From the NCBI GenBank assembly GCA_027315205.1, contig DAHUYM010000008.1, forward strand, positions 1 through 64,000: a stretch of 64,000 nt of DNA, in the 5' to 3' direction. Below are positions 12,434 to 64,000 of this stretch, in pieces. This stretch comes from Leptospirillum sp. Its GTDB lineage: Bacteria > Nitrospirota > Leptospirillia > Leptospirillales > Leptospirillaceae. Every line of letters starts with the position of its first letter. Position 1 is the first letter of the stretch. The translations under genes and the position numbers were made by a program. The notes beneath the pieces are model-generated. The model ran no database searches, was not told the DNA's origin, and saw only the letters and a list, made by a program, of their open reading frames with translations.

Positions 12434-12510
12434 CGGGGCGTGGCGCAGCCTGGTAGCGCACACCGTTCGGGACGGTGGGGTCGAAGGTTCAAATCCTTTC
12501 GCCCCGACCA
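12434..12510 (+). tRNA. tRNA-Pro (anticodon CGG)
   Basis: The acceptor arm CGGGGCG pairs with CGCCCCG, followed by A and an encoded CCA. The D arm is GGCGCAGCCTGGTAGCGC, the anticodon stem CACCG/CGGTG encloses loop TTCGGGA with anticodon CGG, and the T arm contains GGTTCAAATCC. All cloverleaf elements are intact. Confidence 0.96.
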
Positions 12511-12911: not shown

Positions 12912-14396
12912 ATGAGCATCCTTCCTGACGGGGAAACAACCTGGCCGCTCCCTCCCGATGAGGATAGCGGCGGACCTGTTACTTCCGAACCAGAAGAGTC
13001 AGAGCCCGAAGTCCATTCCGGGGCCGACCAGCTGTCCGCCCTTGGTACCTACCTGAAAAAACTCCAGGAATCCCGGCTCCTGACCCCGACGGAAGAGCAG
13101 GCGCTTTCCCGTCGCGTTCAAAAGGGCGAGGAGTCCGCCCGACAGGCCATGATCCAGGCAAACCTTCGTCTTGTGGTGTCCATCGCCAAGAGGTATATCG
13201 GTCGAGGGCTTCTCCTCGACGACCTGATCGAAGAAGGCAACATGGGCCTTATGAAGGCCGTGATGAAATTCGATCCCGAGAAGGGGTTCAGGTTCAGTAC
13301 CTACGCCTCCTGGTGGATACGCCAGGCGATCGAGCGCGCGATCATCAATCAGGGACACACGATACGTCTACCCGTCCACATGATGGAAAAGGTGAACGCC
13401 TATCTGAACGCGATCGAGCGGGTGGTGGCGGAAGGCAAGGAGCCCGATCCCGAGGAGATTGCCCGGAAGAACAAGCTGAAAGTCCGGGATATCCACGAGA
13501 TCCAGAAGCTCCTGAAAAGCACCCTCTCGCTCGACATGCCGATCGGAGATCGGGAAGACAGCACGCTCAAGGACATCATCGAGGATCCCTCCTCCCTCTC
13601 GCCCATCGTTTCGATCGAAAATCGCGAGGAAAAGGCTCTTTTGACGGAGAGCCTTTCGATCCTGAAGGACAAGGAAAGGCGGGTCATCGACCTGCGTTTC
13701 GGCTTGACGGGGGAAGGCAACGACGAAGGGATGACACTGGAATCGATCGGCCATGCCCTCGGAGTGACAAGGGAGCGGGTCCGGCAGATCGAAGCATCGG
13801 CCCTGGCCAAGATGCGGGGGTACATGGAAGACCCGAGCGAATTCCGCAAAAAACACAGATGGAGGGAAGAACACATCATGGATTTCAACAAATGGGTCCG
13901 CCAGGTTCCGGATTTTCCGAAAAAAGGGATTCTCTTCTACGATCTGATGCCGCTTTTCGGGGACCACGTCGCATTTCACGCATTGATCGACATGATGGTC
14001 GAGCCCTACCTGAATCGGGATATCACGAAAGTTGTGGGGATTGAGGCCCGGGGGTTTATTCTGGCCGCTCCCATCGCCTACCGGCTGCAGGCCGGGTTCG
14101 TTCCCGTGCGGAAGAAGGGCAAGCTTCCCGGGGAAGTCCACGAGGTGACATACAGCCTCGAGTATGGAACCGATACGACCGCGATCCATCGGGGGGCCAT
14201 CCGTCCGGGTGAACGCGTTCTCCTGGTCGACGACCTTCTCGCGACGGGCGGGACGGCCCGAGCGGCCCTGGATCTGATCCGGAAAGACGTGGGAAATGTT
14301 GTCGGCACCCTGTTCGTAGCGGAGCTTGTCGGCCTTGGCGGACGGGAACGGCTCGGATCGGAACCGGTCAGGTCGATCCTGACCTACCAGGTTTAG
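12912..14396 (+). CDS. RpoS-like sigma-70 factor fused in frame to adenine phosphoribosyltransferase
   Basis: Residues 1-322 form a group 2 (RpoS-like) sigma factor: an acidic N-terminal tail, region 1.2 ([10 protein letters not shown]), region 2 ([48 protein letters not shown]), region 3, and region 4 with the helix-turn-helix [19 protein letters not shown]. With no stop codon and no linker, residues 323-494 form a complete adenine phosphoribosyltransferase ([18 protein letters not shown] motif [14 protein letters not shown] at about 436-449). APT converts adenine and PRPP to AMP. It may be a true fusion, or APT may also be made from the internal ATG 13878. The fusion is stated from the sequence; its function is unknown. 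Confidence 0.9.
13878..14396 (+). CDS. apt: Adenine phosphoribosyltransferase module, possible separate product from an internal start
   Basis: ATG 13878 is exactly where free-standing APT proteins begin ([18 protein letters not shown]) and would give 172 residues, the family norm. GGAGGG at 13861-13866 lies about 12 bases upstream, a somewhat long but usable spacing. All APT motifs are present. This entry is the same reading frame as the C-terminal part of the fusion, listed because internal initiation is plausible; it is not an additional locus. Confidence 0.5.
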
Positions 14397-14412: not shown

Positions 14413-14733
14413 GTGAAGACTGCACGTCCTGAGGAATCGCCTGGGGCGGCGACCCTGTTCACGGTGATCATCAGCTATGAAAAACCCCTGGATGACGTGC
14501 TGAAAGTGTCGGACGCCCACAGGGAGTACCTCGACGGTTTTCTCCGGAAAGGGATACTCGTGGCCTCGGGGCCTATGGTGCCCCGGACGGGAGGGGTGAT
14601 CTGGTTCAGGAACGTCGATCGCGGGCAGGTCGAAGCCATGGTACAAGACGACCCGTACGCGAAAGCCGGAGTCGCCTCTTTTCGCATCCTCGAATTCGAG
14701 CCCAAAAAACGGGCTCCGGACTTTATGTCCTGA
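14413..14733 (+). CDS. YciI-like protein
   Basis: The 106-residue product has the YCII fold: a first strand FTVIISYEKP, then SDAHREYLDGFLRKGILVASGPMVPRTGG, and a last part DDPYAKAGVASFRILEF. The conserved His in AHREYL and Asp of DDPY are the residues proposed as active-site pair in this family, whose substrate is usually unknown. Start GTG 14413 has CGGAGG upstream, only 16 bases after the sigma/APT stop, so it is likely co-transcribed. Confidence 0.85.
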   Translation: MKTARPEESPGAATLFTVIISYEKPLDDVLKVSDAHREYLDGFLRKGILVASGPMVPRTGGVIWFRNVDRGQVEAMVQDDPYAKAGVASFRILEFEPKKRAPDFMS

Positions 14734-14778: not shown

Positions 14779-17700
14779 TCATGACCCCCCCTGACGGACG
14801 AACGGAAACAGGATGTTCATCCGTCCCAGGATCTCCTCCGAGAACACGCACCGGTTCCTTCCATTCTGCTTGGCCTGGTACATCGCGAGATCCGCATGGT
14901 GGATCAGTCTCTTGGGGTCACGGGTCCCGTCGACGGGGTAGATCGTCACTCCCATGCTGGCAGACAGGCTCAACTGGTTCCCGGCGATCTCGAATGGCTT
15001 GTGAAAGATGCCGAGGAGACGGTCGAGGATCGTCTCAAGCCCCAGACGGTCGGTGATGTCCGGGAGGATACAGACGAATTCGTCCCCTCCGAGACGTCCG
15101 ACGGTGTCCCCCCTTCGTATGATTCCTTCCATCCGATCCGAAACACTCTGGAGCAGGAGGTCTCCGGCCGAGTGTCCGAACTGGTCGTTGATCGGCTTGA
15201 ATCCGTCCAGATCGAGGAAACACACGCCGACGCCGTTTCCGCTCCGGTCGGCCCGGTCCAGTTCCTTTTCCAGGAGAAGCGACAGGAGAAAACGGTTGGG
15301 AAGCCGGGTCAGGTTATCGTAGAAGGCCCATTGCTGAAGTGTCTTTTCCCGTTCCTTCCGGTTGGTGATATCCGTCTGCACCGCAATGAAATGGGTCACT
15401 TCCCCATCGGCCCTGAAGATCGGGGTGATGCGCATATCCACGGTGTACATGGTCCCGTCCTTCTTCCGGTCAGTGACCTCACCGGAAAACTCCCGTCCGT
15501 CCCGGATTGTGTTCCAGAGTTGCCGGTGAAATTCTTTCCCTTCCCTTTCCGATCTCAACATATCGGCATTCTTCCCGATGATCTCGTCGCGATTGTAGCC
15601 CGAAAGGGATTCGAACGCGGAATTGGCCCATTCGATGATACCCTTTTTGTCGGAGATGAACATGGGGGTCAGAGTGGCTTCCATGGCGGCCTGCTGTAGG
15701 CGGGTCCGTTCCAATTCGTCGTGCCTCAAAAGGGTGACTCCGAGGCGTTCGGCCAGCCTGGTGAGATGGCGCAAATGCCGCGGGGAGAATTCGGCGCCGT
15801 CCCCGATGGTCGCGAGATATTTCTTGCGTTTTCCGGGACCGCTGTGGAGCGAGAAGAGAAGGCACGATTTCGGTTCTGCCGAGCCCTTGGGGAGATCGAT
15901 TTTGGCGAGGAAGTCGGCCGGGAGGGTGCTGAACCGGTGGAGCATGGAAGATGCGAGAAGCGAGAGCGTGCGGGAAAAGGCCGACCGTCCCGTGAAATGG
16001 GACTTGATCCGTTCAGCCGCAGTCGCCGTCGAAGCCGAAAGCGCGAGGAGCGACGGCGTGTTCTCTTCATCGATATCGAAGATGAAACTGATCGAGAATC
16101 CGAAGTATTGCGACAGTTGGTCCACGACCGAGGGCAGGATGGATTGAAGCGAGTCTCCCGCCAGTATCCGCCGGTCGATATTGTAGCCCAGCCGGGTCAC
16201 TTCCTGGGAGAGTGTCGCCGATGCCATGTCGCGAACGGTGACGAGGATCTGTTCCTTGCCCTGGAGTGAGAGCGAAGTGGCGCTCGTCGTGACGGGGATC
16301 AGAGTCCCGTCTTTACGACGGTAATGGCGCGGAATGTTGTTCGAATGACCATTTTCGCGGATGCTCCGGATCCGTCCTTCGATCACTTCTTCGGGAATGT
16401 TGATAAAAATCGTGATAGGTTCTCCCTCGATGTTTTCCGGTTGGTACCCGAGCATCGTGCAGAAAGCGGGATTGGTACTGGAGACTCTGTGCGTCACGGG
16501 ATCGAAGAGGTAGATCCCGTCCGGGGCATTCTGGACGACCTGGGTGTACAGCCGTTCGGTTTCCCTTTGCCGTTGCTCGATTTCTTTTCGAAAGGACATG
16601 TCCTCGAATGCCAGGATCGTCGTCCCGATGTCTCCCTGGGACGATTCCCCGATCGGCAGGAGGGTCGCGTTGACCGGAAGGAGGGAGCCGTCCTTCTTGA
16701 CGAGGCTCGCATCGTTTGAATGAAAGAGGGTTTCGAGTGACATGGCGTTGATGATGGCGGGACCGGAGGTATCGGGGTCCACGGAGAGGATATGGCGGAT
16801 GTCCTGCCCGACGAGATCGCCCGGATTGTATCCCAGGGCCCGTTCCGCCGTGGCATTTCCGCGGATGATGCATCCTTTCCGGTCCAGTTCGCAAAAGCCT
16901 TCGTTGAGGGATTCCAGGATCCGCTCGTGCAGTCGAAGGTTCGCCGAAAGAGTCCGGACCTCCCTCCTTTTTCCCGAAATGTCGCGCATGATGGCCATGA
17001 GCCGAGTCGTTTCGCTGACTACGTCCCGGGTGCGCTGGAACGAAAGGGTCACCCAAGCTCCGGGATCCTCGTCGATGACAGTCCTCGTCGACAGGGAAAG
17101 GCTGCTTCCCGGATTCTGGAAAAGCCCCGTCATCTCCCGGGTCAGATCGCTCCGGAAGGATTCGGGGAAAAGGTCGACGAAAACGCACTGGGACCACTCG
17201 GAAATTCCGAATCTCTCCCGCGCCGTCCGGTTTGCAAATGTCACGGTATCGTGGGAGGGGCCGACGATAAAAATCATGTCGCTCGACTGATCCAGGAGAT
17301 CCCGGAACCGGAGGAGTTCTGCGGCTTCGTGGCGTTCCCTGAGGGCGATCCTCGCCAGGTGGCTGAAGGAAAGGAACAGTTCGTTCCCGACCTCTTCGAA
17401 ATACCCGGGTTCGTCGGCGTAGAAGGCGACAACTCCCTGTATGTCCCGCTCTCCGAACAGGAGCGGAAGACTCATGCATTCCTTGAGGTTCCATCGGTTG
17501 GCTTCCTGTCGCCAGGGGATGCCCGACGAATCCCGGTCGTCCCAGAATCGGCAGACGGCTGCCTTGTCCGAGGACAAGGCCTTGCGGGTCGGTCCTGCAA
17601 GGTGGGTCGGGGAATGGTCGATGCGGAGCGCGCGGGCATATTCGGCCGCCGGCCCTGCGGAGTACAAGGGGACGATGACCGTTTCGTTGAGATTCCCGAA

Positions 17701-17859
17701 TGCGGTCCAGGCCAGGCGGATATGACTCGAGGCCCGAACCAGCGCGTCGCAGAAAAACCGGAGAATTTCCGCGGGGGCCTTGCGTCTGGCCACATCTCCG
17801 GTGGCCGCAAGGAGAACCCGTGCGATAGAAGCGCGCTCTTCCTCGAGTTTCAAAGCCAT
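14779..17859 (-). CDS. Multi-PAS/GAF sensor diguanylate cyclase
   Basis: This 1026-residue protein makes cyclic di-GMP from two GTP. It begins with a GAF-like domain (about 1-170), followed by three PAS domains (about 180-580, each with PAC-type ends), a second GAF-like region (about 590-730), a fourth PAS (about 735-850, ending HFIAVQTDITNRKERE), and a C-terminal GGDEF domain from about 842. The active loop is intact (RLGGDEFVCIL) and an RxxD inhibitory site (RRGD) sits five residues before it, so product feedback is expected. No EAL or membrane segment is visible, suggesting a cytosolic sensor. ATG 17859 is chosen because AGGAG precedes it. Confidence 0.92.
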   Translation of the reverse strand: MALKLEEERASIARVLLAATGDVARRKAPAEILRFFCDALVRASSHIRLAWTAFGNLNETVIVPLYSAGPAAEYARALRIDHSPTHLAGPTRKALSSDKAAVCRFWDDRDSSGIPWRQEANRWNLKECMSLPLLFGERDIQGVVAFYADEPGYFEEVGNELFLSFSHLARIALRERHEAAELLRFRDLLDQSSDMIFIVGPSHDTVTFANRTARERFGISEWSQCVFVDLFPESFRSDLTREMTGLFQNPGSSLSLSTRTVIDEDPGAWVTLSFQRTRDVVSETTRLMAIMRDISGKRREVRTLSANLRLHERILESLNEGFCELDRKGCIIRGNATAERALGYNPGDLVGQDIRHILSVDPDTSGPAIINAMSLETLFHSNDASLVKKDGSLLPVNATLLPIGESSQGDIGTTILAFEDMSFRKEIEQRQRETERLYTQVVQNAPDGIYLFDPVTHRVSSTNPAFCTMLGYQPENIEGEPITIFINIPEEVIEGRIRSIRENGHSNNIPRHYRRKDGTLIPVTTSATSLSLQGKEQILVTVRDMASATLSQEVTRLGYNIDRRILAGDSLQSILPSVVDQLSQYFGFSISFIFDIDEENTPSLLALSASTATAAERIKSHFTGRSAFSRTLSLLASSMLHRFSTLPADFLAKIDLPKGSAEPKSCLLFSLHSGPGKRKKYLATIGDGAEFSPRHLRHLTRLAERLGVTLLRHDELERTRLQQAAMEATLTPMFISDKKGIIEWANSAFESLSGYNRDEIIGKNADMLRSEREGKEFHRQLWNTIRDGREFSGEVTDRKKDGTMYTVDMRITPIFRADGEVTHFIAVQTDITNRKEREKTLQQWAFYDNLTRLPNRFLLSLLLEKELDRADRSGNGVGVCFLDLDGFKPINDQFGHSAGDLLLQSVSDRMEGIIRRGDTVGRLGGDEFVCILPDITDRLGLETILDRLLGIFHKPFEIAGNQLSLSASMGVTIYPVDGTRDPKRLIHHADLAMYQAKQNGRNRCVFSEEILGRMNILFPFVRQGGS

Positions 17860-18156
17860 CGGTTTTGCTCCTGGCCGTGCACCCAAAACGTTATCGGCTC
17901 TCAACGTTCCATCGGAAGAGGGAAAATATCGCGGTCCGGAATACACCTGATCGTGAAACGGGATCAAGTCTCCCAACGTCCAATGTCAGAGTATCAGAGT
18001 AATGATAACAAATTTTTTTTTATCTTCAAAAAATATTGTAATCATCGGAACATTTTATATATTAATAATTTATATTTATTTACTTTATGACTTTTAAGTC
18101 ATTTTTGATGGAAACGATTATCGCTCTCGCGGGACGCAAGGACGCAGGGAGTCCGG
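17860..18156. other. AT-rich intergenic region upstream of the diguanylate cyclase
   Basis: Positions about 18000-18110 are strikingly AT-rich against a GC-rich background. The stretch holds the predicted minus-strand promoter at 18002-18029 and a 16-bp perfect palindrome, ATGACTT-TT-AAGTCAT, at 18087-18102 followed by five T. No gene is seen. Confidence 0.5.
18002..18029 (-). promoter_or_regulatory. Probable promoter of the diguanylate cyclase gene
   Basis: On the minus strand TTGAAG is followed after 16 bases by TATCAT, with A/T runs around and upstream of the -35 that could act as an UP element. The leader to ATG 17859 is about 140 bases. Confidence 0.45.
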
Positions 18157-60268: not shown

Positions 60269-61832
<1,564 letters not shown>

Positions 61833-61922
61833 GGAGACATGAAGGGAAACCGTGGGATTGGGGCGCTCCTGTTTAGTACTGTGAAGGATCCGAGTGGGTC
61901 CGGGGACCCTATGGGGAAGCCG

Positions 61923-61999
61923 GGGCCTGTAGCTCAGATGGTGAGAGCGCACGCCTGATAAGCGTGAGGTCGATAGTTCGAATCTATCCAGGCCCACCA
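61923..61999 (+). tRNA. tRNA-Ile (anticodon GAT)
   Basis: Acceptor GGGCCTG pairs with CAGGCCC, CCA is encoded, the anticodon stem CACGC/GCGTG holds loop CTGATAA with GAT, and the T arm is ATAGTTCGAATCTAT. It lies in the 16S-23S spacer. Confidence 0.97.
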
Positions 62000-62004
62000 T
62001 CTGG

Positions 62005-62080
62005 GGGGATGTAGCTCAGTTGGGAGAGCGCCTGCCTTGCACGCAGGAGGCCAGCGGTTCGATCCCGCTCATCTCCACCA
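62005..62080 (+). tRNA. tRNA-Ala (anticodon TGC)
   Basis: Acceptor GGGGATG with CATCTCC (one G-U), encoded CCA, anticodon loop CTTGCAC with TGC between CCTGC and GCAGG, and T arm GCGGTTCGATCCCGC. Five bases after tRNA-Ile. Confidence 0.97.
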
Positions 62081-62119
62081 CGCACTTGGACGGCGCCCGG
62101 GAACGAAGGGGGGCGTCGG

Positions 62120-62138
62120 GGATCATTGACAACTGAAT
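62120..62138 (+). repeat. rRNA spacer element, copy 2
   Basis: Second copy of the ATTGACAACT-containing element of the leader, about 87 bases before the 23S start, differing at one position. Confidence 0.6.
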
Positions 62139-62224
62139 CGGCACAGAAAGACGAAAGAGGGCAGCTTTCCGCGGGGGAACCTGCGGGAAGACGTAAAGCT
62201 TTTTGGAGCAAGGGCGAAGAGAGC

Positions 62225-64000
<1,776 letters not shown>

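Follow-up and report, generated by a model that had tools for sequence, protein, structure and literature searches.

The fused reading frame and its domains

The DNA analyzed here is a stretch of 64,000 nucleotides from Leptospirillum sp. (contig DAHUYM010000008.1, positions 1 to 64,000; referred to below as the window), and the gene of interest is an open reading frame (ORF) in which an RpoS-like sigma factor runs on into adenine phosphoribosyltransferase (APT). The ORF, at 12912 to 14396 on the forward strand, begins with ATG, ends with TAG, and encodes 494 amino acids without an internal stop. A first comparison set contained 41 genomes, namely, the window's own and 40 relatives, and within it the same stop-free frame is also present in G001 (78% identity), G005 (77%), and G004 (77%). 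A preliminary description of this DNA had proposed that one frame passes from a complete RpoS-like sigma factor into a complete APT, and the four sigma regions and the full-length APT profile match found in the open frame bear this out (Table 1).

All four of the regions expected of a primary-like (group 1/2) member of the Sigma-70 family (1.2, 2, 3, and 4) score above the Pfam cut-off, and the helix-turn-helix motif of region 4.2 is intact in each of the four fused proteins. The best-scoring NCBIfam sigma model is that of RpoS, at 311.1 bits against a TIGR02394 cut-off of 378.7, and a further RpoS model, NF004207, gives 308.1 bits, also below its curated cut-off (394 bits). Because the score lies under the equivalog cut-off, “RpoS-like” is the appropriate name. 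RpoS chains from the PDB align with residues 34 to 307.

The APT part matches TIGR01090 at 197.3 bits (cut-off, 185.85) over profile positions 3 to 167 of 169, and it scores 200.1 when the whole genome is searched with the same model. Pfam places the phosphoribosyltransferase (PRT) domain at residues 367 to 465. The APT part starts at M323 (position 13878), which lines up with the ATG of the free-standing APTs of relatives, as had been described. The accompanying statement that there is no linker needs correction, since region 4 ends at about residues 302 to 306 and is followed by a tail (303 to 322) that is conserved and about 20 residues long. No Rfam match was found at the junction.

The genome encodes one RpoS-like sigma factor (the fused gene), one RpoD-like sigma factor, and one that is more distant; a scan of the contigs gave only distant sigma factors. 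The only APT is the fused one, and the genome search found neither a spare unfused RpoS-like sigma factor nor a spare APT. Each molecule of this sigma factor should therefore carry an APT unless it is cut later. Each of the four fused proteins retains the key motifs of both domains; the chain is therefore expected to be bifunctional, and both domains should be active.

Table 1. Features of the fused gene in window coordinates
Feature	Position	Strand	Remarks
Fused sigma-APT ORF	12912..14396	+	494 aa, ATG to TAG; stop-free in G001, G004, and G005 too
Sigma-70 region 1.2	13038..13133	+	Residues 43-74; Pfam PF00140, E 5e-7
Sigma-70 region 2	13149..13343	+	Residues 80-144; Pfam PF04542, E 2e-21
Sigma-70 region 3	13386..13604	+	Residues 159-231; Pfam PF04539, E 2e-14
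Sigma-70 region 4	13653..13817	+	Residues 248-302; Pfam PF04545, E 1e-15
Sigma C-terminal tail serving as linker, conserved	13818..13877	+	Residues 303-322; indel-free among the four fused genes
GGAGGGA Shine-Dalgarno-like motif	13861..13867	+	Within codons W317-R318-E319; GGAGG lies 12 nt ahead of the APT ATG
APT domain	13878..14393	+	Residues 323-494; TIGR01090 above cut-off; Met in 4/4
APT PRPP-binding motif	14220..14258	+	Residues 437-449; in 4/4 fused proteins

Selection at the junction and origin of the fusion

Codon alignment of the four fused genes places no insertion or deletion at the junction. Over residues 306 to 322, the nonsynonymous value (pN) is 0.084 and the synonymous value (pS) is 0.89, giving a ratio of 0.094; the ratio is 0.19 across the sigma core and 0.15 across APT. 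Within this tail, the variable columns number 4, 3, and 13 at the first, second, and third codon positions, respectively, and none of 5,000 column shuffles gave a pN/pS as low. Silent changes extend to H321, two codons ahead of the APT Met. The low ratio, along with silent changes up to that point, indicates that ribosomes read the frame through to APT, and with the junction being read and no stop separating the parts, the fused chain should be made. Judged by these codon patterns, the tail at the junction is translated and under purifying selection at the protein level.

A stop-free frame in three relatives, combined with purifying selection on the junction codons, also means that the fusion is not a sequencing error. 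The expectation under which the fusion would have been given up, that relatives all have a stop between the two parts, fails in three relatives belonging to two other genera. Sequencing or assembly error, a frameshift, and a recently lost stop codon were thus rejected; four independent genomes at 77 to 78% identity share an indel-free junction with many silent changes, which leaves such explanations with a negligible probability. The preliminary description had argued against a simple error by another route, noting that a one-base shift at an A6 run does not produce an early stop. Its conclusion is upheld by the frames of the relatives, and its details need correction: the run lies at 13848 to 13853 (one base from the 13847 to 13852 given), and in this genome the shifted frames meet stops after 30 (+1) and 63 (−1) residues. 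Across the four genes, the distances to these stops are 30/14/30/30 (+1) and 63/11/7/45 (−1) residues, and the shifted frames are unconserved. A programmed frameshift at the A run that would free the sigma factor was also rejected, as neither shifted frame has a conserved stop.

In a family sample of 21 genomes from five genera (g1 to g5), genera g1, g2, and g5 together contribute four genomes, and all four carry the fused frame. No genome of g3 or g4 has it; there, the two genes, if found, lie next to each other with either a stop or a change of frame separating the parts. Phylum-wide (396 genomes), a joined match of sigma factor followed by APT occurs in many genera, and it contains one or more stops in all but the four fused genomes. 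In another phylum (297 genomes), there are eight joined matches, each with a stop. No stop-free fusion was found outside the clade in the 396 genomes of the phylum, the 297 genomes of the other, or 12 genomes from a single class of that second phylum. Although the genomes of the three fused relatives are drafts (87%, 89%, and 64% complete), the gene itself is unaffected and intact in each of them.

In a tree of sigma factor plus APT, the four fused genes group together as a single clade (local support, 0.97). In the sister unfused genes, the sigma tail is longer and variable and is followed by a stop, a short gap, and APT, whereas in each fused gene the APT Met follows exactly 20 codons, counted from residue 303. 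This difference makes a deletion that removed the stop the likely event. The simplest history suggested by the tree is a single fusion of an old adjacent pair in the ancestor shared by g1, g2, and g5. Taken with the selected junction, the distribution indicates that this is a genuine gene fusion kept across three genera, far beyond what is expected by chance.

Two features of the unfused genes may be recorded alongside. In L007, L008, L009, and many genomes of family f10, the sigma factor and apt genes share a frame with a single TGA between them, so readthrough of that stop would also yield a fusion. In the g4 genomes G003, G007, and G009, the RpoS-like sigma factor is matched in two pieces that split near query residues 266 to 271, which suggests that region 4 either contains an insertion or has diverged; in the tree, one g4 genome lies on a long branch.

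A likely internal start and the proposed products of the gene

The preliminary description had also raised the option that the sigma stop was lost and that APT is made in addition from the ATG at 13878. The W317-R318-E319 codons just ahead of this ATG are TGG AGG GAR in all four genes and contain an invariant GGAGGGA, which is complementary to the 3′ end of 16S rRNA (the window's own 16S ends in GGATCACCTCCTTTCT). The predicted Shine-Dalgarno (SD) duplex at the APT Met has an energy of −10.4 kcal/mol in each of the four genes, which ranks first (of 15) or second (of 13 to 18) among in-frame ATGs. When residues 41 to 494 are compared, GGAGG is common to all four genes at this one aligned place only, and the motif falls within an invariant run of 9 nucleotides that is tied for third-longest over the same range. 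Of the 32 Arg columns that are invariant, Arg318 alone is AGG in all four genes, and it is among the three whose codon does not change; codon usage was taken from the four fused genes, and many of the ORFs listed in the window are antisense. The RNA around the M323 start is less folded than at 81 to 97% of codon positions. Together, the invariant motif, the retained Met323 (4/4), and the weak RNA structure support the idea of an added start, jointly with the fused product. Internal initiation at ATG 13878, giving free APT, is likely on these sequence grounds.

The reading that we favor, with a probability of roughly 0.6, is that after a single fusion of an adjacent pair, one gene gives two products, a 55.5-kDa sigma-APT fusion and a 19-kDa APT. 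The two are not mutually exclusive, and both are likely to be made. A single deletion would have removed the stop of the sigma gene together with most of the short spacer behind it, joining the RpoS-like sigma factor to apt. Translation from ATG 12912 would then give the 55.5-kDa chain as the only form of the sigma factor, since no stop separates the parts, and a start at ATG 13878, aided by GGAGGGA in the tail codons, would give the free enzyme. Because APT is a homodimer, free APT could pair with the fused APT domain, so that a holoenzyme might hold an APT dimer with no second sigma factor required. The main consequence would be fixed coproduction of sigma factor and APT, with an APT placed next to region 4 of the sigma factor. 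Adenine, phosphoribosyl pyrophosphate (PRPP), or guanosine tetraphosphate (ppGpp) might also regulate the sigma factor via the APT domain, and the proposal of the preliminary description, that tethering would link adenine/PRPP status to promoter choice, is likewise only a possibility; the null view is simply a fixed coproduction of two proteins whose genes already adjoined.

Several points weigh against this two-product reading. Met323 on its own says little, because all four genes conserve 9 of the 14 Met residues. The 12-nucleotide spacing between SD motif and ATG is longer than the usual optimum. Since the conserved W-R-E residues partly force the motif, only the choice of AGG counts as independent evidence. 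The fused genomes known are only four, three of them drafts (64 to 89% complete), and a single-sequence structure model reached a pLDDT of 37 and was not used.

The same spacing, the unexceptional retention of the Met, and the open frame with a tail selected as protein would all suit a gene with one product, the fused chain being both the sole sigma factor and the sole APT and the SD-like motif a by-product of W-R-E. This is rather unlikely, in that Arg318 is AGG in all four genes although CGN codons dominate, GGAGG is the sole such motif that they have in common, and the RNA at the internal start is weakly structured. A precursor chain that a protease would cleave within its basic tail (FRKKHRWRE), leaving free sigma factor and free APT as the working forms, is less probable still. 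Conservation of the basic tail would fit a cleavage site, but it fits a structured tail or one contacting RNA polymerase equally well, and processing at this position is not known to us for any group 2 sigma factor.

The two-product reading could also be extended by an on-board sensor, with which it is compatible, in which APT would pass information on adenine, PRPP, or ppGpp to its sigma factor and alter holoenzyme formation or promoter choice. Precedents exist in the ECF41 sigma factors, where a fused C-terminal regulatory domain has been shown to control activity (PMC3426412), in the sigma factor OrbS, which has an on-board iron sensor (PMC9023288), and in PurR, a transcription regulator whose PRT fold reads PRPP and (p)ppGpp (PMC13170274); retention of the fusion over three genera also agrees with such a role. 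On the other side, APT keeps its catalytic motifs like an ordinary enzyme, and fusing an operon pair can be nearly neutral selectively, which makes the sensor doubtful. The fuller version of it, in which every sigma molecule would bear a built-in purine sensor and free APT from the internal start would tune the response by pairing, is speculative to a similar degree.

Surroundings and relation to known systems

Upstream of the fused gene, a tRNA-Pro (cgg) gene at 12434 to 12510 lies just ahead of an acylphosphatase gene, whose true start must be further in because the listed GTG at 12475 falls inside the tRNA. A YCII-domain gene (14413 to 14733) follows the fused gene directly on the same strand. 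Convergent to the fused gene, a large GAF/multi-PAS/GGDEF protein, a probable diguanylate cyclase, is encoded at 14779 to 17976 on the reverse strand. An rRNA operon occupies 60269 to 64000, with 16S, tRNA-Ile, and tRNA-Ala followed by the beginning of 23S, which continues past the end of the window; the ORFs listed within it are spurious.

The view that no sigma-APT fusion has been described agrees with the open-access literature, in which none was found, and this is weak evidence of absence. With the search terms used, we found no open-access papers on the Geobacter rpoS-apt pair or on internal initiation, and none of the papers searched describes an RpoS-like sigma factor bearing a complete metabolic enzyme. 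Extra C-terminal sigma domains are known in the extracytoplasmic function (ECF) group as built-in regulators (PMC3426412, PMC9023288). Because the pair is adjacent yet separate in many relatives, the fused clade is a natural experiment, and it poses the question of why genes for a stress sigma factor and for purine salvage stay together. A further question is whether transcription can be a direct target of a PRT enzyme, as it is of the PRT fold in PurR.

Compared with the unfused rpoS-like/apt pair of the same phylum, the fused gene has the same order, strand, and adjacency but lacks the stop codon or codons (at least one) that separate the two genes there. It resembles RpoS and the group 2 Sigma-70 factors in having regions 1.2, 2, 3, and 4 and in matching RpoS as its best NCBIfam model, and it differs in its score, which is under the equivalog cut-off, and in a C terminus that runs on into an enzyme. 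As an Apt, it has a full-length domain above the TIGR01090 cut-off, an intact PRPP motif, and a start aligned with those of free APTs, and it departs from them in being preceded in frame by a sigma factor. The ECF41 proteins likewise combine a sigma factor and a large C-terminal domain in one chain (PMC3426412). However, they are of the ECF type and carry another C-terminal domain, and control by the extension has been shown there and is only a possibility here; the ECF architecture has regions 2 and 4 only, whereas the fused protein also has regions 1.2 and 3. PurR-type regulators share with it a PRT fold attached to a transcription factor (PMC13170274), but the N-terminal DNA-binding domain of PurR is absent from the Pfam matches of the fused protein, in which a complete APT forms the PRT part and is joined to a sigma factor.
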